Part shown: positions 6,978 through 60,836 of the stretch, in pieces
Numbering within the stretch: the first letter of the stretch is position 1
Layout: each line of letters starts with the position of its first letter
Virus record (IMG/VR): IMGVR_UViG_3300005541_000008
Span: 1 to 64,000 of that record
Direction: 5' to 3' (one strand)
Source of the DNA: a virus
DNA length: 64,000 nucleotides
Notes under the pieces: generated by a model
The model's input: the letters and a program-made list of their open reading frames with translations, nothing else
The model's database searches: none
Told to the model about the DNA's origin: nothing
Translations under genes and position numbers: made by a program

Positions 6978-7038
6978 CTTATTTCTCCTTTGCTGGTGGA
7001 TAATTGCCCAGAGCACGACGCCCCAGGCCCCTTGGCCC

Positions 7039-7254
7039 TCACTGACAGAAGGCAACTCCCTTTTCGGTCATAACACCTTCAAACAATCTCACCGTTACGG
7101 CACGCTTGAGCCTGAACTCCACTTCCTCCCGGGAAACGCGTCGGTCGTCGAGCATCTTACGGAGCGTTGCTGCTTCCTTCTCGATGAGCGCGGCAACCGC
7201 CTTTGCAACGGGCTCGGAGAATGCGTGGACTGTACGGAGATCCTGGTTAGTCAT
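7039..7254 (-). CDS. Small helical protein
   Basis: 71 aa starting MTNQDLRTVH at 7254 with a GAAGG site; upstream codons are probably untranslated. Helical and charged (AVAALIEKEAATLRKMLDD), no Cys or membrane segment. It lies 2 bp downstream of the next minus-strand gene. Function unknown. Confidence 0.55.
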   Translation of the reverse strand: MTNQDLRTVHAFSEPVAKAVAALIEKEAATLRKMLDDRRVSREEVEFRLKRAVTVRLFEGVMTEKGVAFCQ

Positions 7255-7255
7255 C

Positions 7256-7849
7256 TTACCTTCCAACCTCGTCGTCGCGATAGTGAATCTGCTTGAACAA
7301 TCTCCGCCCTTTTTTCGCAGGCACGAGCAACGACCCCGCCGGCACACGCACCCTCCTCCCACCACTCAACTCGAGGGTTGCGGAGCGATCAACACCCAAG
7401 ATAGGGGTTTTGCGCTTTGTAAAATCATGCCGAAAATTCTCGCCCGGCCAATAAGAATTTTTCCCCTTCCTCGCCTCGATCGCGTGGATGTCGTCGTAGA
7501 CCTCTACGAGGTCGTCGTCTTCGTGTGGAGGGTTACTACTCATCCCCCGGTCGAGCGACTCGCGATACGATCTCGCTTCGGAAAATGCCTGCCCGAGGAA
7601 GAAATCGCGCTTCGCGCCCTTAGCCGCATCCCGAGAGTGTCGTGCCTGACCGAACGCTATCCGGTGGTATTCGGCGCCGGGGTTGGTCCTCGAAATTCTC
7701 AAATCTACATACTCCCTCGCGAGAGTATTCGACGAAAACGGTCCTATAACCCTCTCAAACTCTGGATACGTGCGCTCAGTGGGCTTTGTCGTCGTAAAGA
7801 ATATTCTCGGCCTCTCTCTTCCCGGATATATTCCAACATACCAACTCAT
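7256..7849 (-). CDS. Unknown protein with a duplicated N-terminal module
   Basis: 197 aa. The first 55 residues (YVGIYPGRERPRIFF to RVIGPFSSNTLAREYV) resemble the whole small protein encoded next to it at 7846-8031 (YIGMFVSGKGRVFSS to SVIGPFKSDDAAKEF), so the two are paralogues. The remainder is charged, with LELSGGRRVRVPAGSL near the end. The 3' end is 1 bp from the next gene and the 5' end overlaps the upstream gene by 4 bp. No known family recognised. Confidence 0.6.
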   Translation of the reverse strand: MSWYVGIYPGRERPRIFFTTTKPTERTYPEFERVIGPFSSNTLAREYVDLRISRTNPGAEYHRIAFGQARHSRDAAKGAKRDFFLGQAFSEARSYRESLDRGMSSNPPHEDDDLVEVYDDIHAIEARKGKNSYWPGENFRHDFTKRKTPILGVDRSATLELSGGRRVRVPAGSLLVPAKKGRRLFKQIHYRDDEVGR

Positions 7850-13305: not shown

Positions 13306-13878
13306 TTACACTGGCCTCCTTGCAAATCCCGTCGCCTTAAATTGCACTTCCCAAGGCCCTGTTTGTAGCTTCGCAGAATGCGGCCACTTCACGACGAACG
13401 AAAACTTCTCGTGGGGGTTGAAAGTGAGCCTGATCCCGAGCTTTCTCCCGTTCTTGTGAATGCACACATAATTCGCGGTGAGCAGGAGTGCCATGAGGGC
13501 ATAATCACCACCCGGGAAGAGATCAGTCAAGGGCCAAGGACCGTACTCCTTGTCGCCTGCGTAGATAGAGGCGTGACCTCCCCCAACCAGCGCAGCAATA
13601 TCCGGCACGAGCAAGGCCCTGATAGGGTTTAGGCCCCTGTAAAGATAAACAACCCGAAGATCGTACACCTGGAGTAGCTTCGTTCCGAGCACTCCACACG
13701 TTATGTTCCGTCGCGAGAGATCTTCCTCCCCCGACGCGCCAAACACGAGCTCCTTCGTCTTCCCTGACACGAAAGGGAGCGTGTCGTAGAGGGTGTAGTC
13801 GACGTCCTCGGGAACAGATAACACCCGGGTCGTCCTTCGAAGCTCTGCCGTAACCGTCTCTACAACCCCAGATTCCAC
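13306..13878 (-). CDS. Capsid-like virion protein, copy 2 of 3
   Basis: 190 aa. It shares the block order of the 5109-5795 and 63187-63789 proteins: a central L-x-R-x-N block, then NPHEKFSFVVKW and a C-terminal G-F-A-R-R-P-V. It is more divergent and lacks the DTNLDQA motif. GTG start with a GAGGTG ribosome site. Could be a minor capsid, vertex or decoration protein related to the main capsid-like protein. Confidence 0.5.
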   Translation of the reverse strand: MESGVVETVTAELRRTTRVLSVPEDVDYTLYDTLPFVSGKTKELVFGASGEEDLSRRNITCGVLGTKLLQVYDLRVVYLYRGLNPIRALLVPDIAALVGGGHASIYAGDKEYGPWPLTDLFPGGDYALMALLLTANYVCIHKNGRKLGIRLTFNPHEKFSFVVKWPHSAKLQTGPWEVQFKATGFARRPV

Positions 13879-13884
13879 TTCACA

Positions 13885-13990
13885 TCACCTCTACCGCACA
13901 GGACAAAACTTCACATTACCCTTACCGTACAGCGCCGCACCGTACCTCACCAATACTTTACGATACCATACCGACGCGCCACAAGACTAA
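13885..13990 (-). repeat. Short tract of pentamer-grammar repeats
   Basis: Read on the minus strand, this 5' non-coding tract consists of GGTAN units followed by N-G-Y-R-N pentamers, with 21 and 25 bp between GGT anchors. This is the same pattern as the large arrays at 38.8-39.6 and 40.3-41.9 kb. It directly precedes the capsid-like gene at 13306-13878. No ORF is supported here. Confidence 0.5.
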
Positions 13991-13993
13991 GCT

Positions 13994-14269
13994 TCACGTA
14001 CGCCACCCTAAGCCCTTGGGCACCTCGAACTCATTAATTACCTCAACACCCCCGTCTTCGGTGTCCCTCTCAATTCTCACCTCTGCCGAGAGCCGAATCC
14101 GCCTAAAATCCCGACCTTCTATCGCCGCCCGATAAAACATGTCCGTGGTTCGGTGTGCTTCTTCAATCTCCGCAGCCCCTAGCAATGAACGCCCGTAGAA
14201 GACATGCGTCACTACCTCTTCCCTTTTGCGTTCCTCGCCTTCGAAGATATCCACAATAATCTTATACAT
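13994..14269 (-). CDS. Unknown beta-rich protein
   Basis: 91 aa from the ATG at 14269 (MYKIIVDIFEGEERKREEVV). The 30 codons available upstream look like read-through of a leader containing a GCGACC/GGTCGC hairpin. Alternating strands with a charged profile. The ribosome site is weak. Unknown function. Confidence 0.5.
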   Translation of the reverse strand: MYKIIVDIFEGEERKREEVVTHVFYGRSLLGAAEIEEAHRTTDMFYRAAIEGRDFRRIRLSAEVRIERDTEDGGVEVINEFEVPKGLGWRT

Positions 14270-14383
14270 AACGCAGCGCCCTGTGTTAAGTGAAGGAGCG
14301 ACCGAATCCGAGCCACCAGCTCCGGTCGCCCCCTCTCTGTCCACTTCACGCTCCCCCAACAGGGCGTAAAGGGACCCCGGCTA

Positions 14384-19509: not shown

Positions 19510-19640
19510 TTGTGTGCCGTGTTGCGGTGCGGTGCGGTGCTCTGCGCGTGGCTCGTGGCTCGGTAGGTGCGGTGATGTATTGCAACGCTGCCGCGCTGTA
19601 TACTGCCATATGCAACGTGGCAGCGTTGCGTGTGCAGTGC
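19510..19640. repeat. Repeat-like tract with an 11-bp inverted repeat
   Basis: This non-coding tract between the two arms shows a loose TGCGG/TGTGC pentamer pattern like the arrays at 38.8-41.9 kb. It also has a perfect 11-bp inverted repeat (GCAACGCTGCC at 19582-19592, GGCAGCGTTGC at 19619-19629) with an extra TGCAACG between the arms. The position at the divergent switch point suggests a regulator or replication-initiator binding region. Confidence 0.4.
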
Positions 19641-19766
19641 CTTCTAGCGCCCGCTACGGCTTTCCGACTCCGGAGTGCGTAGCGTTGCTTTGCGCCACAG
19701 GGCGCGGTGCAGCGCCTTGAGGCAGATAGCGCGAGGTTGTGTAGGGCCTCTGCTATCTTGAAGTCA

Positions 19767-28386: not shown

Positions 28387-28589
28387 AGGAGCTCGAGGTG
28401 GGGGTGGCGTTATTGCGTATCCACGAGCATGCGCAGATTATGAAACACGTTGTATCAAATCGGCGCAGCTACCCATCAGAGTTTCCTCTGCGGTGGACAT
28501 TAGAAAGGCTCCTAGAAGAGATAACCCTTCTGCAGCTTACCATGGAAAGGGTGGATGATGAGAATACGTCTGGGAGCGTCCTGGGGTAG
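28383..28589 (+). CDS. Array protein 16
   Basis: 68 aa from the ATG at 28383 (ATGA overlap), MKELEVGVALLRIHEHAQIM, ending MERVDDENTSGS. Closest to copy 17. Confidence 0.6.
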   Translation: MKELEVGVALLRIHEHAQIMKHVVSNRRSYPSEFPLRWTLERLLEEITLLQLTMERVDDENTSGSVLG

Positions 28590-28596
28590 CGAGGGA

Positions 28597-28791
28597 ATGA
28601 AGGAGCTCGAGGTAGGGGATGCTCTAGAGTACATCAACGAACAGGCGCGGATTATAAAGTATATCACGCTGGAAAACCGCCGCGTGTCGGTGCTTTCCAT
28701 GCAGTACACGTGGAGTAGACTCGCAGGTGCAGGGGGCTTTTTGCAGTTTGTTATGGAAAGGGTAGATGGCACGGAAGCGACAAAGACTTGA
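28597..28791 (+). CDS. Array protein 17
   Basis: 64 aa from the ATG at 28597, MKELEVGDALEYINEQARII, ending MERVDGTEATKT. The near-identical starts and ends of copies 16 and 17 point to a recent duplication. Confidence 0.6.
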   Translation: MKELEVGDALEYINEQARIIKYITLENRRVSVLSMQYTWSRLAGAGGFLQFVMERVDGTEATKT

Positions 28792-28972
28792 GATCCTAGA
28801 TATAGAAGAAGCGCTCCCAGCCGTTTACATGCGGCTTTCTGCTCTGAAGACGCTCGTAGAGAAGGCGAGACGCTACAAATCGCGCGCGAAAATGCGGGAG
28901 GTGATGGGGGAGATCGCGTACGAAGGGGAGCGCATGCGGGATTTTGTGGAGTGTGTGCGGGATGATGTATAG
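28766..28972 (+). CDS. Array protein 18
   Basis: 68 aa, basic start (MARKRQRLEILDIEEALPAV), family core kept, ending FVECVRDDV. Overlaps copy 17 by 26 bp. Last unit before the unrelated gene at 29000. Confidence 0.55.
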   Translation: MARKRQRLEILDIEEALPAVYMRLSALKTLVEKARRYKSRAKMREVMGEIAYEGERMRDFVECVRDDV

Positions 28973-28999
28973 ATAGCTAACACGGGAAGGAGGTGTCGA

Positions 29000-29353
29000 G
29001 TGTCAATAAAAGACATCCAAGAAATAGGGGTAGTAACCGACGAACCCGAGTTTGGGGACTCGTGGCAGGAAATAGTCAGGGAGATCGAAAGGACAGATAA
29101 AGTGCCATTCCACGGTGCTTTCTACGCCAGCTACGGAGAGGGCGACACTACTTTTGCTCTCCTTGAGTTTTCAGAACAAGGTAGCGCAGAGGCCCTGTTT
29201 GTTGTAGGTCAGGGAGAGGCGTTAAGGCCTTATATAGAGCATTACAAGGGCTCGAGCGATTCGGCCGCTTTAAGGGCCTTTTTCAACGCTATACAAGGCA
29301 AAGATAGGTTGACAAAGGAGTTCAAGAAGTGGACGAAGGAAGGGGGCCGTTAG
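29000..29353 (+). CDS. Unknown protein with FKKW-type tail
   Basis: 117 aa. AAGGAGGTG precedes the GTG start. Mixed strands and helices, without Cys. It ends RLTKEFKKWTKEGGR, a variant of the E-F-K-x-W-K-E tail shared by several other small proteins. It interrupts the paralogue array. Function unknown. Confidence 0.55.
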   Translation: MSIKDIQEIGVVTDEPEFGDSWQEIVREIERTDKVPFHGAFYASYGEGDTTFALLEFSEQGSAEALFVVGQGEALRPYIEHYKGSSDSAALRAFFNAIQGKDRLTKEFKKWTKEGGR

Positions 29354-38793: not shown

Positions 38794-38819
38794 AGTAGGG
38801 GCGCGGCGAGGTAGCGTTT

Positions 38820-39640
38820 TGTAGCGGCGTGGTATGGTAATGTATTGCGACGGCGTAGTACTGTGGCGTAGGGTAGCGGCGCGCTATTGTGGGGTAATGT
38901 AACGGCGAGGTGTGGCACTGTGTTGTAGTGTAAGGCGAAGGCGCAGCATGGTGTAGTATCGCGATGGCATGGCATAGTACCGTGTTGTAACGGCAAGGTA
39001 AAGTATCGCAGGGGATCGCGGTGGCATAGTGCAGTGTTGCAACGGTATTGCGTAGTGCAGTGTTGTATCGGTAAAGCGCGGCATAGTGCCGGCAAAGTGC
39101 AGCGGTGCGTTGGTAAAGTGTGGTATAGTGCCGTCGGGGTATAGCCGTGTGACGTATTGTGCCGGCAAAGTGCGGTGTGGTAGGGTAAGGGTAAGGTAAT
39201 GCACTGTATCGTGGAGGCAAAGTGGAGCGTGGTATGGCGCGGGTAAAGTGTAGTTTCGTGTAGTGGTGTACCGGCATTGCGATGTGTTGTGGAGCATGGG
39301 CAAGGTGCAGTATTGTATCGTGTCTGTAGGGTCCGGTAATGTATCGCGTCGGCAAGGTGCAGCATTGTTCCGTCTAGGTAAAGTGTGGTATCGCGTGGGT
39401 ATAGTTTGGTAAAGTGTGGGTATAGTTTGGTAAAGTGCGGTAGTGGTAAAGTTCAGCATCGCGTTGTGGAGTGCTGTTTGGGTGAGGTGCGGCATAGCTC
39501 TGTGCAGCGAGGGTGTAGTGCGGTGCAGTAGTGGCAATGCAGTGTGTAGCATCGGCATTGTCTTGTAGGGCGCTGTAGCGTGGGGGCATTGTCTCGTAGG
39601 GTACAGCGGGGGTGTAGCAACGTATAGTAACGGCAAAGGA
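38820..39640 (+). repeat. Pentamer-grammar repeat array 1
   Basis: About 820 bp with no plausible gene. Units start with GGYAA/GGYAT and continue as N-G-Y-R-N pentamers (for example AGTGC AGTGT TGTAT), giving 21 or 26 bp between successive GGYA anchors. The frame of the pentamers is kept while bases at the N and Y/R positions vary freely. Long minus-strand ORFs here are artefacts of base composition. The array stops just before the ribosome site of the 39651 gene. Confidence 0.75.
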
Positions 39641-39650
39641 GGAGGAGAGC

Positions 39651-40301
39651 GTGGCAAAAGCAACGAAGGATAAAGAAGCGAAACCAGTACCGCGTGTGGG
39701 CAAGGTCGTTTACGATGTCGATATTACACTGACCGAGCCTATGTTGGGCACAGTGCCTTATAACAAGGAGATCTACGCGGAGTTTATCGAGAAGAGCAAG
39801 CCCAAGGAGATCTCCGAGGACGAGACGGCGACGGTGCCCGAGAGGGATGAGAAGACGGGGTGGACAGGGTTTCACGTTGACGAGAATGGCAAGGGCCTCT
39901 TCATCTACGATTACATGGTGAAGGGGTTTATGAAGAACGCGGCATCGTCGCTCAAGGAGTTCGACGACGTCGGGAAGGAGGAGAAGGGGCAGAAGCAACT
40001 CATCAACAACCTCGTTTTTGTGTTTCCGCGGCGGATCTTTCTCCATAAGAAGAAGGGTGATGGAGTGCTGGAACGTCCGCTGAGAGCGCAGACGATGCAA
40101 GGGCCTCGCGTAACACTCGTGCGCTCAGATCAGGTCGCAGAGGGCACCAAGTTCAAGTGCGAGATTATTGTGCTTGACGGGAATCGAATTACCGAAGCTA
40201 AGCTCCGGAAGTGGCTTGACTACGGAGCGTTTATGGGCCTTGGGCAGTTTCGTAATGGATCGTATGGGAGATTTACGTACGAGATGGTGAAGCGGCGGTA
40301 A
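39651..40301 (+). CDS. RAMP-like or phage-conserved protein in a repeat island
   Basis: 216 aa from a GTG after GGAGGAGGAGAG. DITLTEPMLGTVPYNKEI, YDYMVKGFMK, LVFVFPRRI, ERPLRAQTMQGPRV and a C-terminal GLGQFRNGSYGRF. I believe relatives exist in phages of Firmicutes, where no role is known. The glycine-rich GxGxxxxGxxG end and strand order recall the G-rich loop of RAMP (Cas5/6/7-type) RNA-binding proteins, but this is only a resemblance. It is the only gene between the two repeat arrays. Confidence 0.6.
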   Translation: MAKATKDKEAKPVPRVGKVVYDVDITLTEPMLGTVPYNKEIYAEFIEKSKPKEISEDETATVPERDEKTGWTGFHVDENGKGLFIYDYMVKGFMKNAASSLKEFDDVGKEEKGQKQLINNLVFVFPRRIFLHKKKGDGVLERPLRAQTMQGPRVTLVRSDQVAEGTKFKCEIIVLDGNRITEAKLRKWLDYGAFMGLGQFRNGSYGRFTYEMVKRR

Positions 40302-40304
40302 GGC

Positions 40305-41930
40305 GTAGTAGGGTAAAGTACGGGCACTGTGGAGCGTTGTGAAGTGAAGGTGAAGCAGAGTGTTGTATCGGCTCAGCAGAGTGCTGTAGTGCGCTGGTAA
40401 GGTGAAGTGTAGTAAAGCTTAGGCGCGGTGTTGTACCGTGTGGCGATGGCGGGGGTGAGGTGTGGCTCAGTAGTGTGTTGGTAAAGTAAAGCGTTGCGAT
40501 GTGTCGGTAAAGTATTGCGATGCGTGGTAAAGCGGCGGTATGGTGCAGCGCTGTAACGGTAGGGTCTAGTGATGTAATGCTACGGCAGAGTAATGCGATG
40601 TCGTGCGATGGCAGAGCAGAATACCGTGATGTAGAGGTATGGCAAAGCAGGGTGTTGTAGCGTGCGGGTATGGTGTAGCGCAATGCTGTAGAGTAACGGT
40701 GTGGTGGAGCAGGGTAGCGTGGCGGTACGGTGATGCACTGCGGAGTAATGTAGCGGTCTAGTATAGCTCTGTTACGTACGGTAACGGTACTGCATAGCTT
40801 TGTTGCGTAAGGCGTAGGTAATGCGTTGTTCGGTAGGGTAGTGTGGCGGTACTGCGTAGTGTGGTGGAGTGCCGTGGTGGTACTGCCTTGTTGAGTTAAG
40901 TGGAGTTCTGGCAGAGTAAGGCAGAGCGCTGCAGCGGTGTTGCGATGTTCTGTGTGGGTATTGTGACGTATAGTGGCGGTAAAGTGGAGTCCTGTAACGG
41001 CGCTGCATGGTACCGTATCGCACAGGTATTGTATAGCATGGCCCCGCTTTGGTAGGGTATGGCATCGTACGGGTAAAGTATCGCAGAGTCCTGCTTTGGT
41101 AAAGTTCAGCATGGTTTGGTACCAGTAGTGTTGGGTGCGGTGATGTGGGGTTTTGGTAAAGTATGGTGTCGTGCTGCGTGGGTACAGCGATGTAGAGTGA
41201 CGTATTGGTAGAGTGCTGCAATGTGGCGGTACAGTTTTGTCTTGTGGCGTGTCGGCAAAGTCCGGCTTTGTGCTGTTGCGGTAACGTATGGTGTCGTACA
41301 GCGTTGGTAAAGTGTCGTCGTGTGGCGCGTAGGTAAAGTGCTGCAGTGCGGGGCTTTGGTAAAGCTTGGTGTTGTGCTGTTGTGGTATAGTAGCGTCGTG
41401 TAGCGCACGGGTAAAGTCTGGTGTTGTGCTGCGGCGGTAAAGTGTTGCGCTGTGCTGCGGCGGTAAAGTGTGGTGGTGTGGCGCGTAGGTAAAGTTTTGT
41501 GTTGTTTCGCGGTGGTCTTGTGTTGTGCCGTAATGGTTTTGTACTGGTGCAGTTTGGCGATGTGCCGTGTTGGTAAGGCGCGGTCATGTAACGTGTTGGT
41601 AAAGTCTAGTGATGCAATGCTTCGGTAAAGCGGTGTGGTGCGTTGGCATTGTGCAGTACTGTAATGCGCTGGTAAGGCGCGGTCATGTAATGCTTTGCTT
41701 TGGTAGCGCAGTGTGCAGTAACGGCAGAGTACTGTAGCGTGCCGTGACGGCAGAGCAGAGTTAGGTAAGGCGGCGGTAGAGTTAGGTAATGTAACGGTAG
41801 AGTAGCGTTGCGTAATGGCGTAGTGGAGTATAGTGATGTAATGGCGTAGCAGAGTAGAGTTATGTAACGGCGTTGTATAGTAGTGTGTAGCTGTAGGTGT
41901 AGTACAGTGAAGTGGCGTGACGGCGGAGCA
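40305..41930 (+). repeat. Pentamer-grammar repeat array 2
   Basis: About 1.6 kb, same grammar as array 1. In the best-ordered part (41.3-41.7 kb) units of exactly 26 bp follow each other, for example GGTAA-AGTGT-TGCGC-TGTGC plus six bases, mixed with 21-bp units. Each unit differs from its neighbours at the N, Y and R positions. No constant 20-40 bp repeat exists, so it is not CRISPR. It ends with the ribosome site of the 41936 gene. Confidence 0.75.
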
Positions 41931-41935
41931 ACGCT

Positions 41936-42328
41936 ATGGTCAACGTCGGGATTGTGGGATCGAGAGCGAGGACAGCGCCCGAGGATAAGGAGCGCACGAG
42001 GGTGGCGCTTCTCGAGCTGCTCGATGAGTTTGGTAAGGAGAACGTTACCATTGTCTCTGGAGGGTGTCCTGACGGCGCTGATCAGTTTGCCGAGCAGTTT
42101 GCCGCGGAGTACGGCTTGCCCAAGATTATCCACCATCCCGATAAGAGTAAGTTAAGGGCGAAGGCGCGTTGGGCGTATGCGGAGATATACCACGCGCGAA
42201 ACACATTCGTGGCGCGGGATGCCGAGGTGCTTATTGCCGTGATTAATAAGGGGAAAGAGGGTGGCACGGAGCACTGCGTGAGAGAGTTCTTGAAGATGGG
42301 GAAGAAGAGGTTGGTGATTATCGAATAA
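41936..42328 (+). CDS. SLOG/DUF2493-type Rossmann protein
   Basis: 130 aa. VNVGIVGSRARTAPEDKER, VTIVSGGCPDGADQFAEQF and LIAVINKGKEGGTEHCV are the nucleotide-binding motifs of the SLOG superfamily (YspA/DUF2493 branch), proteins thought to bind or hydrolyse nucleotide derivatives. Its start lies inside the end of repeat array 2. Probably cytoplasmic; ligand unknown. Confidence 0.7.
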   Translation: MVNVGIVGSRARTAPEDKERTRVALLELLDEFGKENVTIVSGGCPDGADQFAEQFAAEYGLPKIIHHPDKSKLRAKARWAYAEIYHARNTFVARDAEVLIAVINKGKEGGTEHCVREFLKMGKKRLVIIE

Positions 42329-53457: not shown

Positions 53458-54029
53458 AGGGGATTATTGATAAGGAGCAGGCTAAGAAAGCAGTCTCGTC
53501 ACTACTCGAGTTTTTTCACGTTCCGGATTCGGACGGGATTTACACGGAAACGCCCGAGCGGTTTTTGAACGCGCTTTATGAGATTGTAGGGGGGCAGGGA
53601 GTTGCAGCGCCGTCGCTTAGGACCTTCGAGACCAAGAGCTCGTCGGACATTGTGTTCTTCGGGCCTCTGAAAAGCACGAGTTTATGTCCACACCACCTCT
53701 TCCCGTATCTCGTGGAGGCGTTCTTTGCGTACACGCCGGGTGAGAGGGTGGTAGGGATTAGCAAACCCGGGCGTCTCCTGCAATGGGTGTGTAGTAGAAC
53801 GGGACTCCAAGAGGAGATGGGCGGAGCGTTTCTCGATGAGTTCGAGAAGCAAGTGCCGAATAAGGGCGCGATGCTCCTCCTTAAGGGGTGGCATTTGTGT
53901 GCTTCGATCCGCGGCGCAAAGCAAAGTGAGGCCGAGACGATTACAATCGACACACGAGGAGTTTTCCACACGCAGCACGCCCAGGATAGGTTTATTAGCC
54001 TCGTGAAGCTTGCAAGAGGGGCTGCGTGA
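53454..54029 (+). CDS. folE: GTP cyclohydrolase I FolE
   Basis: 191 aa. ETPERFLNALYEIVGG, STSLCPHHLFPYL with the C-x2-HH zinc ligands, and GWHLCASIRGAKQ with the third ligand Cys, all in the order of FolE. It opens the guanine ring of GTP to make dihydroneopterin triphosphate for QueD. GTGA overlap with the next gene. Completes the preQ0 set. Confidence 0.88.
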   Translation: MKGIIDKEQAKKAVSSLLEFFHVPDSDGIYTETPERFLNALYEIVGGQGVAAPSLRTFETKSSSDIVFFGPLKSTSLCPHHLFPYLVEAFFAYTPGERVVGISKPGRLLQWVCSRTGLQEEMGGAFLDEFEKQVPNKGAMLLLKGWHLCASIRGAKQSEAETITIDTRGVFHTQHAQDRFISLVKLARGAA

Positions 54030-55063
54030 GGCATCCAGCCGCGTATCCGTCATCGAAGTGCGAGAAGTGTCCGTTACTTGAGCGCGTCGACAAGTACCAC
54101 GTGAGCGCCGAGAAGCCGGACACTGCGCGCATTGCTCTCGTGGGCGAGGCGCCCGGGGAGAAGGAGGTGACGTTGCGCAGGCCGTTTGTCGGGCGCTCGG
54201 GAATCCTTATGGACCAGCTCATTGCTGCTGCGGGGATTCGGCGCTCGGAGTGTGTCGTGACGAATGTGCTTAAGTGTCAGCCGCAGGGGAATAAGCTCCC
54301 AAACGATTACCAACTCGACATCGCAATCGGTTGTTGTTCTGAGATCCTCGCCGAGGATACCTCGGGCGTCGAGGTGATAGTGGGTTTTGGGGCGACGCCT
54401 CTCCGCGCGTTTATGCGACTCGACCGGATTACGCAACGCCGGGGCTCTGTGTACAGACTCCCCTCAGGGCAGCTTTATGTTGCGACCCTCCACCCGGCAT
54501 TTCTCCTCCGCGGCACGTTCGTACAAGCGAAGCAAGACGAGACGAAGGTGCTCCCGCCTCAGGTCGTGATAAATGACTTGCGTAAGGCGCGGAGGATATT
54601 GGATGGGAGTTTTGAGGAGGTCGTCGAGAACTTTGTGCTGTATCCCACCGCTGATGATATGATGGCGTTCCTAGAGCGCCTCGAAGAACCTGACGTCCTC
54701 GTCGGCGTGGATATTGAAACGACGTATGTTGACACGTGGAGAAGTGCACAACTCCGTACGATAGCGTTCGCGTTTCCCGATCTCGCGATTGCGGTTGCTG
54801 CGGATACCGATGAGAATTTGATGTTTATTATCGAGGCGCTCGAGAGTCCCGCGAGGAAGGTGTTTCACAACGGGATTTTCGATGTGAGCGTCCTCGAGGA
54901 GACGGGCTTTGAGGTCGTGAATTGGTTCGCCGACGACCAATACATGCACCACCTCGGGTATGCAGAGCTCCCGCATTCGTTAGCCTTTGTGCAGAGTATT
55001 TATAATAATATGCCCTACCATAAGGACATGAGGGATGAGATCGCCGAGGAGTATGAAAAATGA
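54026..55063 (+). CDS. Uracil-DNA glycosylase fused to the start of a DEDDy exonuclease
   Basis: 345 aa. Residues 1-200: family 4-type UDG with CEKC near the start, GEAPGEKEVTLRRPFVGRSG, CQP, AIGCC (four Cys for a 4Fe-4S cluster) and HPAFLLR. From about 225: exonuclease motifs VGVDIETT (ExoI) and HNGIFDV (ExoII). The third exonuclease motif (YNCRDA) is not here but at the start of the next gene. GTG start overlapping folE. It removes uracil and proofreads only if joined to the next ORF. Confidence 0.7.
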   Translation: MRHPAAYPSSKCEKCPLLERVDKYHVSAEKPDTARIALVGEAPGEKEVTLRRPFVGRSGILMDQLIAAAGIRRSECVVTNVLKCQPQGNKLPNDYQLDIAIGCCSEILAEDTSGVEVIVGFGATPLRAFMRLDRITQRRGSVYRLPSGQLYVATLHPAFLLRGTFVQAKQDETKVLPPQVVINDLRKARRILDGSFEEVVENFVLYPTADDMMAFLERLEEPDVLVGVDIETTYVDTWRSAQLRTIAFAFPDLAIAVAADTDENLMFIIEALESPARKVFHNGIFDVSVLEETGFEVVNWFADDQYMHHLGYAELPHSLAFVQSIYNNMPYHKDMRDEIAEEYEK

Positions 55064-56373
55064 GCGACGACCTAACCCTACTCACGTATAACTGTCGGGA
55101 TGCGTTGTCGACGGTGCTCTCCGCCGAGCCTTTATTAAGGGAGCTCGAGACCGACGGCCTGAGCGAGTTCTACTTCCGGATTGTGCAGCCCATGGCACAG
55201 ATCATCGTCAAGATGAACCGGAAGGGCATCTTCGTCGACACTGCGAAGCGCAACGCGGCCGTAACAACCGTCGAAGCAGAGATCGAAGAACTCGAGCATA
55301 AATTCGCGGATCTCGTCGGACGGCCGATGAACGTGAATGGTGCGGAGTTTGGGGATTTCCTCTTCGGAGAATTAGGGCTGCGCGGCTCGCGTCGCGGGGA
55401 CTCCGGACGCTGGCAGGCGGATGAGGAGACGCTGAAACGGGTGTTGCGCGAGTACCCAGACGTCGCGCCCGCAATAAACATGGGGCTCGATATTAGGGCG
55501 AAGAAGAAGATCATCTCCACGTTTCTCCTCCACGCAATCCCCGAGGAGGATAGCCGGGTTCACCCCTCCTTCAAGATCGGTCCCACGACCGGGCGCTTAG
55601 CCTGTCGGCGCCCTAACTTCCAAAACCATCCCGCAGGGGTGTGTAGGAGCGTGTATTGTGCGCCGCCGGGGTTTGTACTCGTGGGGGCGGACTACTCTCA
55701 GCTCGAGATCCGGATCCTCGCAGTCCTCGCTAACGACGCGCCTCTCCTCGAGGCTTTCGCAAACGGGTGGGATATCCACAACACCAATGCCTGGGTGTTG
55801 TTTGGTCTCGAGCAGGGCTCGCCGGTCACAAAACTCCAACGGGTCATCGCGAAGATGTTCCTCTACGGCCTTATGTACGGGGCGGATGACGACACCCTCC
55901 ATACGAACCTGTGTCGTGATATCCCCGAAGGTGTGCCGATGAGTGTTGTGAAGACAATGACCTCGAGGTTCTTTGCTGCGCACCCTGCAATCCGCGCCTT
56001 CCGAACAGTACTCGAGAACAATGTCCGGACGAAGCGGAGACTCGTAAACGCGTTTGGAAGGCGGCGCCTCTTTTTCGGGGAGATACAGAGCGCGATTCGT
56101 CAGGGCTATAACTTCCCGATGCAGGGTGGGGGCGCGGATCTCATTAGCGACCGGATGATCAAGCTCGATCGAGAGATTAGGATCCCGCCGGTTCTCCAGG
56201 TGCACGACTTTGTCGCGTATGAGGTTGAGGAGTCCCGAGGGCAAGAGCACGCGGTGGTCTTGAAGCAAGTGCTCGAGGAGAAGTGCCCCGAGCTTAGTGG
56301 GTACTCATTCCCCGTGGAGACTAAAGTGGTGCAGAATTGGGCGCAGTTCGATCCGGAGTATGCGGATTTGTAG
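55060..56373 (+). CDS. polA: Family A DNA polymerase (polymerase domain)
   Basis: 437 aa. The N-terminus MSDDLTLLTYNCRDA holds the ExoIII motif of a DEDDy exonuclease whose first two motifs are in the previous ORF. Polymerase motifs follow: motif A DYSQLEIRILA (Asp211), motif B RVIAKMFLYGLMYG with Tyr at the usual Phe position, and motif C VHDF, where the usual Glu after HD is Phe but the catalytic Asp is kept. ATGA overlap with the previous gene at AAAAATGA. Length is normal for a polymerase domain. Confidence 0.8.
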   Translation: MSDDLTLLTYNCRDALSTVLSAEPLLRELETDGLSEFYFRIVQPMAQIIVKMNRKGIFVDTAKRNAAVTTVEAEIEELEHKFADLVGRPMNVNGAEFGDFLFGELGLRGSRRGDSGRWQADEETLKRVLREYPDVAPAINMGLDIRAKKKIISTFLLHAIPEEDSRVHPSFKIGPTTGRLACRRPNFQNHPAGVCRSVYCAPPGFVLVGADYSQLEIRILAVLANDAPLLEAFANGWDIHNTNAWVLFGLEQGSPVTKLQRVIAKMFLYGLMYGADDDTLHTNLCRDIPEGVPMSVVKTMTSRFFAAHPAIRAFRTVLENNVRTKRRLVNAFGRRRLFFGEIQSAIRQGYNFPMQGGGADLISDRMIKLDREIRIPPVLQVHDFVAYEVEESRGQEHAVVLKQVLEEKCPELSGYSFPVETKVVQNWAQFDPEYADL

Positions 56374-58816: not shown

Positions 58817-59071
58817 ATGAGGGGAGAAACGAAAGAAGGTGGAATAACTGCTCGCGAGATAATGCAAGCAATCGTAACTTGGAAGCCGCCGATATTTCCC
58901 CGCGACCTACACACAAAACTCGGTATACCGACGGAGCAGTGTGGTCGCAGGATGCAGGTGCTTCATCATTGGGGATGCGTAAAATACGCGGAGCCGGGGA
59001 AGCGTGGGTGGCGCGGCTATGAGGTCACGGAGTGGGGAAGGAGATATGCAAGAGGAAAAGAGGAAGTGTAG
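58817..59071 (+). CDS. Winged-helix DNA-binding protein
   Basis: 84 aa from the ATG at 58817. ITAREIMQAIVTWKPPIFPR, then PTEQCGRRMQVLHHWGCVKY, and a strand pair ending EVTEWGRRYA look like a winged helix. It overlaps the integrase-HNH gene by 26 bp, so it may be its regulator or recombination directionality factor. Confidence 0.6.
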   Translation: MRGETKEGGITAREIMQAIVTWKPPIFPRDLHTKLGIPTEQCGRRMQVLHHWGCVKYAEPGKRGWRGYEVTEWGRRYARGKEEV

Positions 59072-60836
59072 TAAGTGTGGACTCGAAAAGGGCGCCGGAG
59101 ATTTCTACGTCGGGCCCGGTAATTGGTGTAAAGAGTGCAGAAGAAGCTATGTGCGAGGACGCCGGTCTACTCGTAGAGAGCGCGGTAAGCAGCGTCTCTA
59201 TCCTGAGCAGTGGCCTATTCTTTTACAGCACGTAACAAATAAGGAAGCGCTCCTCCTTTTTGACTTACTGCAGAGTTGCGGATTACGCCCCACAGAAGCG
59301 CTCGCTCTCAGAGCCGAGAGTTTTGATTTTTCTCGAGGTACCGTAACGGTAAAGAATACAGATCGCGGGGAAGAGAGAACCCTAATCATGCTCGTGCGTG
59401 CGGATTTGCTAATCGCTTTGGAGGAAAGGAAGGGGTCCATCGATATAAAGCCCCAGATAGCCCGTAAGGTTTTTAGAGAGGCAGTAGCTGCCGGAAAGTC
59501 TGCTCTCGAGAAAGTCACAGAGGAGTATCCTAACGAGGAAAAGCCGGACACGGATGGTCTGAGTATGGCGTCGCTCCGCTACACCTTCGGCCTGCGCCTC
59601 TACAGCATCGGTGCACGAGAGCCCGAGTTTTCCGCTCTCCTTCGGCTCAGATCACGCGAGCCAGTGTGGCCTAACTTCGAGCTTATGAACGAACTCCTAA
59701 AGAAAAGCTGGGAACAGCAACCAAGACTCTGGACTCCGCGTGAGACTTTGGTGGTTTATAATAAGGACGGACTCAAGAAGTGCACACGATGCAGCCAGGA
59801 GAAACCTCCGGAACAGTTCACTCCCGGAGTGAGTAGGTGTCTACAATGCGTTAATGAAGTAGTCCAACCTTATATGGAGAAGCGTAAGAAGGGAGAAGAC
59901 GGTAAACGCAACAAACGCAAGAAAGCGTGGTATGTGTATCCAGATCGCGCGAAGTGGTCACCTAGAGAGAGAATACTCTATCCTGAGCAGTGGCCGAGAT
60001 TCTGGCGGGCTGTGAAGGAGTATAAGTTCCGGATGATCTTCGATCTTATGCAGAGCTGCGGACTCCGTGCTAGAGAAGCCCTCTATATCGGACCGAAGGA
60101 CTTTGACTTCGACCGCGGAGTACTTGCCGTGCGCACGCTAAAACAAGTAGAACGACCAGTGCACGACGTGTTTGTGCGTCCTGACATACTAAGGAGGCTA
60201 AGGAGTATAAAAGTAGACACGGAAGGAAGATACTTCGACTTCGAGTACCCAACCCTATGGGACGAGTTTAAAAGGGTCGCCAAAGAAGTAGGCCTCGATC
60301 CGAAACTCGGAACACACGCGCTACGTCATTGTTGTGCGGTAAGACTAGGGCGGCTTCCTTCTGCAAACGAGATGCAAGCTAGAGCTCTCCTTCGACACAG
60401 TCCAATCAACGTAACACAAGGCTACGCGCAGCCTATAGAAGACCCGCTAAAGCATCAGGAGATTTGGGATCAGTCTTGGACCGAGCAAGAGTGGATCTGG
60501 ATAGCTCTCTTAACAGGGGCTCCTGATTGGGATCAGAGTGAACTAGGATGGATAGAAGAAGATCGCAAACGCGCGACTCGTGACGGATGGATAGATCCCG
60601 AGAGGTGGCAGGCCCTCGTAGACTCGTTGGGGAATAAATGTCTCTGTTGCTGGAAGCAGCCTCCTGATACGACGCTCTACGCAGATCATATAGTTCCGCC
60701 GAGCGCCGGAGGGTTGTGGATCGAGTCCAATCTTCAGCCTCTTTGCCGCACCTGCAATAGCTCGAAGGGTGCAAGGAAGGTAAACTTTCGCAAAAACCCC
60801 CAAGCGGATAGGTCATGGTGCGCTCATCCCCGCTAA
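59046..60836 (+). CDS. Tandem zinc-integrase-zinc-integrase-HNH fusion
   Basis: 596 aa from the ATG at 59046. Zinc knuckle CSKCG...CKEC, then integrase-like unit 1 (YPEQWPILLQHV, SCGLRPTEAL near residue 78, SLRYTFGLRL near 175, no His or Tyr nucleophile found). A second knuckle (CTRCSQEK...CLQC) leads to unit 2: YPEQWPRFWRAV, SCGLRAREAL (Arg near 339), ALRHCCAVRL (H-x-x-R near 421), LLRHSPINVTQGYAQ (Tyr near 458). An HNH domain ends it (CLCCW, DHIVPP, CRTCNSSKG). Unit 2 looks catalytic; unit 1 looks degenerate. Confidence 0.75.
   Translation: MQEEKRKCSKCGLEKGAGDFYVGPGNWCKECRRSYVRGRRSTRRERGKQRLYPEQWPILLQHVTNKEALLLFDLLQSCGLRPTEALALRAESFDFSRGTVTVKNTDRGEERTLIMLVRADLLIALEERKGSIDIKPQIARKVFREAVAAGKSALEKVTEEYPNEEKPDTDGLSMASLRYTFGLRLYSIGAREPEFSALLRLRSREPVWPNFELMNELLKKSWEQQPRLWTPRETLVVYNKDGLKKCTRCSQEKPPEQFTPGVSRCLQCVNEVVQPYMEKRKKGEDGKRNKRKKAWYVYPDRAKWSPRERILYPEQWPRFWRAVKEYKFRMIFDLMQSCGLRAREALYIGPKDFDFDRGVLAVRTLKQVERPVHDVFVRPDILRRLRSIKVDTEGRYFDFEYPTLWDEFKRVAKEVGLDPKLGTHALRHCCAVRLGRLPSANEMQARALLRHSPINVTQGYAQPIEDPLKHQEIWDQSWTEQEWIWIALLTGAPDWDQSELGWIEEDRKRATRDGWIDPERWQALVDSLGNKCLCCWKQPPDTTLYADHIVPPSAGGLWIESNLQPLCRTCNSSKGARKVNFRKNPQADRSWCAHPR

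Follow-up and report, generated by a model that had tools for sequence, protein, structure and literature searches.

A very probable VIPR locus with long two-sided pentamer arrays in a virus genome

Among described systems, the closest to the locus studied here is VIPR (Viral Interference Programmable Repeat), presented in the main text of a 2026 preprint as a CRISPR-like weapon that phages carry against other phages (PMC13142463). That text reports vrRNAs built from pentamer repeats with related consensuses, and refers to “staggered arrays with overlapping vrRNAs” (PMC13142463). For Escherichia phage SUSP1, it places one vrRNA site upstream and three downstream of the vipr gene, reports that the pentamer RNAs guide DNA binding, and describes a reading in which the variable dinucleotides recognise DNA with a 1-nt skip, that is, a two-of-three code (PMC13142463). 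With VIPR, the recognition of DNA by RNA guides takes a new form, which has been proposed to precede CRISPR; the locus studied here shows that grammar alone is enough to spot such a locus in raw sequence.

Here, we studied a 64,000-nt stretch of viral DNA (positions 1 to 64,000 of the IMG/VR record IMGVR_UViG_3300005541_000008), which we refer to as the window. An earlier reading of this stretch, made from the sequence only and without database searches, had noticed two long arrays with a pentamer grammar around one gene, and knew of no described element with such a grammar; VIPR, described in 2026, is one (PMC13142463). The virus record is 77 kb long and carries phage polymerase, primase, integrase, and exonuclease genes.

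Two regions elsewhere in the window are recorded as observations in their own right. At 54026-56373, a family A DNA polymerase is split over two ORFs, both of which PHROG 17 aligns within one 1445-position family, and the first ORF joins a uracil-DNA glycosylase domain to a 3'-5' exonuclease. At 59004-60836, a 610-aa ORF joins a tyrosine integrase domain to an endonuclease-VII-like stretch at the N-terminus and an HNH domain at the C-terminus.

Layout and grammar of the arrays

A dynamic-programming parse was applied to positions 38810-39645 and 40300-41935, with a unit defined as one extra G plus n GYRNN pentamers. It resolved two putative vrRNA arrays on the plus strand, both made of units of the form G(GYRNN)4-7: an upstream array of ~30 units (38810-39637), which ends at the ribosome-binding site of vipr (39638), and a downstream array of ~58 units (40302-41933). 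No interruption in either array exceeds 4 bases. The upstream array scores 314 and the downstream array 554, compared with 90 and 114 for the best of 100 dinucleotide shuffles of each (3.5 and 4.9 times as high), and, given these scores and the full parse into units, we consider the two arrays real. A single gene (39651-40301) lies between them, as the sequence-only reading had it.

Most of the 89 complete units have n = 5 (49 units, 26 bp), followed by n = 4 (20 units, 21 bp), n = 6 (14 units, 31 bp), and n = 7 (two units), the rest being odd. Unit length is 5n + 1 bp, of which the spacing of 21 and 26 bp first read off the sequence is a special case: both values were borne out, but the description was incomplete, as 31 bp is a third regular spacing. 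The extra G at each anchor moves the pentamer frame by exactly one base, giving a one-base G reset every four to seven pentamers, and in relatives the junction consensus at these resets is GCAAN-G-GCA. Autocorrelation, which had been proposed as a check at lags 5, 21, and 26, peaks at all three and also at 31, 47, 52, and 57, with values of 0.42-0.51 versus a mean of 0.28 (in the order 26, 52, 31, 21, 57, 47, 5).

Position-wise information agrees with the early description of a strict frame that holds variable positions. Within the window, the G of each pentamer carries ~2 bits, Y ~1 bit, and R 0.2-1.1 bits, and positions 4 and 5 mostly carry <0.2 bit, except beside resets. Inner pentamers in relatives have G at position 1, mostly a pyrimidine at position 2, and ~0.02-0.09 bit at positions 4 and 5. 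Near-identical repeats with unique spacers, as in CRISPR, are absent from the window arrays, which also show no excess of sigma-70 promoters or terminators and no match in Rfam; plasmids gave no match either. The window array is the longest among the loci that we fetched, many of the others ending at contig or flank limits. Directly after the downstream array lies a SLOG/YspA-like (DprA-related) gene (41936-42328), with weak matches to the ShosA and PsyrA defence models; it is not a conserved neighbour of vipr.

The same detector found an orphan mini-array on the minus strand (13874-14003), with ~24 pentamers and 4 internal G resets, which scores 45.8 versus a maximum of 15.9 in 10 whole-window shuffles. 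Its two flanking ORFs are on the minus strand too, and it occupies the whole space from the stop codon of 13994-14359 to the GTG start codon of 13306-13878. It lies well away from vipr, which is on the other strand. Such an array is unusual, because only two others more than 2.5 kb from vipr were found in the contigs of 46 relatives that were read in long stretches. One of these is 2.9 kb from the gene; the other is at the opposite end of its contig, a position that would probably be adjacent to vipr if the genome is circular. That this array is so compact and yet holds resets suggests that a single vrRNA may extend over several units. Between divergent genes at 19514-19745, a G-rich tract of pentamer-like sequence scored 34, above the shuffles, but it was rejected as an array, being without G resets and giving a score on either strand.

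The Vipr protein, its relatives, and the coupling of gene and array

The gene between the arrays, vipr (39651-40301, plus strand), encodes a predicted 216-aa single-domain RAMP of the Cas7/Csm3 type with a C-terminal glycine loop GLGQFRNGSYGRF. Searches with this single sequence returned no convincing Pfam, PHROG, or PDB match, and none of the Pfam CRISPR families was significant. In a PDB search, the family profile matched the sequence of type VII Cas7 around the glycine loop (E 5.8e-4). An AlphaFold2 model built from a 50-sequence alignment reached a pLDDT of 89 and matched type VII Cas7 with a Foldseek E of 1.7e-9 and a VIA-align Z of 15.1; it is also near Csm3 of type III-A, and the best 50 structure matches listed are Cas7/Csm-type RAMPs throughout. 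By the fold of this model, the product is a guide-RNA-binding Cas7-type RAMP, in agreement with the RAMP-like gene suspected from the sequence, and it has the make-up of a Vipr protein: a single-RRM RAMP with a glycine loop that falls outside the Cas5/6/7 families. The alignment of the SUSP1 Vipr itself (28477-29061, minus strand) to the family profile runs from end to end, glycine loop included, and the match is significant but weak (hhalign, E 6.9e-5, probability 63%).

The arrays also lead to the same system. When the window's detector was run on 50 kb (half) of the SUSP1 genome, its four vrRNA sites ranked first, and they sit beside the gene as the preprint has them, one upstream and three downstream. 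Comparison of the window's array DNA with 50,697 phages gave one weak match (E 0.02), to an unannotated GGYNN array in Felixounavirus NBEco004, which adjoins a DNA ligase, the neighbourhood of the VIPR locus in SUSP1. Two SUSP1-type vrRNA arrays can be seen in this phage (L356, 1714-1901), with no vipr-sized gene annotated adjacent in the 4 kb fetched, and they may be orphan vrRNAs.

Relatives of the 39651-40301 protein were found in 4 gut phages, 80 viral contigs, and 21 MAG contigs, mostly from Clostridia. A search for the same grammar near its homologues, a check put forward by the sequence-only reading, located an array within 3 kb of the gene in 54 of the 56 relatives examined; it is downstream only in 36 of these, upstream only in 16, and on both sides in 2. 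All 43 nearby arrays in contigs read at length are on vipr's own strand, and unit lengths are broadly spread, from n = 4 to n = 9. Any one family of neighbouring genes was seen in 3 of the 56 relatives at most, and no conserved accessory (vap) gene was found among them.

The pentamer frame is kept across phages whose Vipr proteins share ~40% identity. The strings of variable dinucleotides are private to their loci: near-identical contigs aside, one seven-dinucleotide string was common to different loci. Two near-identical phages, L074 and L075, show 3.2-fold more differences in the array than in the flanks (p 9e-5, with changes that are clustered and so not independent), and one unit has three inner pentamers replaced, with its first pentamer, last pentamer, and resets kept, as if guides had been swapped in place. 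In the same pair, clustered changes at 6992-7049 and 7359-7384 are confined to a few array units. In another pair (L053 and L055), the flanks are far less similar than vipr and the array are. The variation of the arrays among relatives is not the erosion of junk DNA.

These comparisons bear on two other accounts of the arrays. One would take them to be ordinary tandem repeats without function, kept by slippage, and stretches of 78 bp and of 26 bp are indeed duplicated locally in the downstream array. However, the copies are too divergent for such an origin, yet their G and Y positions are fixed; further, the frame is conserved over the protein distances given above, the arrays are tied to one gene family, and slippage predicts that they should be missing in most relatives, against the 54 of 56 that have one. 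We give this account next to no weight. The other would make the arrays platforms of double-stranded DNA on which a protein assembles into a filament or wrap, with the 21-, 26-, and 31-bp units keeping helical phase, and units of 5n + 1 bp are indeed near multiples of half a helical turn. However, the arrays are always on the coding strand of vipr and their base composition is strongly asymmetric between strands (G 39%, C 14%); the spread of unit lengths in relatives and the guide-RNA-binding RAMP fold of the partner protein also stand against it, and it seems highly improbable. The same strand bias, length spread, and fold leave the early guesses at a protein platform with helical phasing, and at a packaging, partition, or anti-defence decoy element, without support.

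The tracts of the locus combine constant and hypervariable bases in pentamers beside vipr, and GYRNN is a form related to GGY. Because the gene product has the RAMP fold and aligns with the SUSP1 Vipr, the arrays are coupled to the gene in nearly all relatives examined and share its strand in all 43 cases read, and the detector recovers the SUSP1 sites, we conclude that the window locus is very probably a phage-borne VIPR, with 39651-40301 as Vipr (an ancestral RAMP of one domain) and the flanking and orphan arrays as sources of vrRNAs.

Proposed mechanism and the search for targets

If the locus operates as SUSP1 does, transcription of the flanking arrays would follow that of vipr in direction (plus strand) and yield vrRNAs, and each vrRNA would carry a row of Vipr subunits, one per pentamer. 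The constant G-Y(-R) part of a pentamer would be held by its subunit, and the variable bases would be left to pair with DNA. On the SUSP1 model, the Vipr-vrRNA complex would then attach to competing phages or prophages wherever their DNA matches, and silence transcription at these sites.

Candidate guides were decoded as dinucleotides (positions 4-5 or 3-4) or triplets (positions 3-4-5), with skips of 0-3 and with or without crossing resets. Searched against 2.2-2.9 Mb of VIPR-phage contigs with skips of 0-3, the decoded guides showed no excess over shuffled guides. An apparent excess at skip 3 was rejected, as it came from array DNA matching itself on unmasked strands, and a 9-pentamer match between a guide from one relative (L056) and the beginning of a gene for an IDTREK-type nuclease in another (L066) was within chance given the controls. 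Exact scans of viral contigs with one guide from a further relative (L003) and one from the window returned chance matches only; a scan with one SUSP1 guide did the same, and thus failed as a positive control. Contiguous decodings, compared with the 50,697 phages by BLASTN, produced nothing convincing.

The third unit of the orphan array has a match of 21 exact bases (23/24) to the folE-like gene of two large phages (90 and 119 kb) and to a homologous fragment, and this match begins exactly at a reset. The folE-like gene is unproven as a target: chance would give ~0.03 matches of this quality per guide, a figure not corrected for the readings tried, and the candidate phages, which have 37% G+C, are matched by no other window guide. 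Because no guide has a secure target, it is by inference that we assign a guide function to these RNAs; the early suggestion that the arrays are a source of variable small RNAs matches the relatives, the RAMP fold, and the VIPR literature.

The lack of a secure target for any guide in the window clade, together with the Cas7-like protein encoded next to the arrays, could also be accommodated if the array RNA were a sponge or decoy, titrating, for example, host CRISPR RAMP complexes or a host RNA-binding protein. However, a sponge has no need of hypervariable positions, whereas here the variable bases differ in nearly all loci with the frame kept and single units change inside that frame; moreover, RNAs of this type guide DNA binding in SUSP1, according to the main text of the preprint (PMC13142463). 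We regard a sponge or decoy as very unlikely.

How such guides would be read can be approached from the arrays themselves. Position 5 of one pentamer and position 3 of the next, though separated in the array, show the kind of correlation that neighbouring bases have in phage DNA (z 3.3, 0/300 shuffles). Of the nine pairings across neighbouring pentamers, this one alone carries the phage-DNA dinucleotide signature, and it does so mostly in one half of the loci. A pentamer that reads three adjacent target bases would lead one to expect this correlation. A joint-likelihood comparison of reading rules gave a z of only 1.0, and the depletion of stop codons in decoded triplets was weak. That pentamers of the window clade, as GY+NNN, read three adjacent target bases in a contiguous triplet code in which resets consume none, in place of the SUSP1 two-of-three code, is a tentative proposal, and in our judgment a rather doubtful one. 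The ends of the vrRNAs, the role of the resets, and the choice between two and three bases read per pentamer can now be put to the test.

Comparison with described systems

The window adds to what is described for VIPR a very large two-sided array, an orphan array, and more than 100 relatives, mostly in viral contigs and Clostridia MAGs. These relatives sharpen the description of staggered arrays by their GCAAN-G-GCA resets, by two bases per pentamer that are nearly free of information, and by the turnover of single units.

Comparison with VIPR type II, as represented by SUSP1, shows a common core. In both, a phage encodes a single-domain RAMP, the two proteins align end to end, and pentamer RNA with constant GY and hypervariable bases lies upstream and downstream of the gene on the gene's strand. 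In SUSP1, as described in the main text, the vrRNAs are four in number and stand apart from one another, each made of ~12 GGYNN pentamers and a 3' tail, and a vap gene is present (PMC13142463), whereas the window has ~89 continuous units without a tail, a one-base G reset every four to seven pentamers, and, across its 56 relatives, no conserved vap. The pentamer itself is GYRNN with a free fifth position, in contrast to the strict GGYNN of SUSP1. Type II is defined by discrete vrRNAs with a conserved structured 3' tail; the arrays here are continuous and have no Rfam match, and in this the locus departs from that type. Judged by the main-text description only, the staggered arrays with overlapping vrRNAs are the closest architecture to that of the window (PMC13142463).

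With the Cas7/Csm3 proteins of class 1 CRISPR-Cas systems (types III-A and VII), the locus shares the protein fold, the glycine loop, and variable RNA beside the gene. Unlike those systems, it has no identical repeats and spacers, no cas neighbours were found, and its guide is interrupted every five bases. Another phage-associated system of tandem interspaced guide RNAs is TIGR-Tas, which uses a Nop-domain protein and not a RAMP. What is distinctive here is the combination of continuous tail-less arrays, G resets, an orphan array, and placement on both sides of the gene (as in 2 of the 56 relatives) with the lack of a conserved accessory gene.
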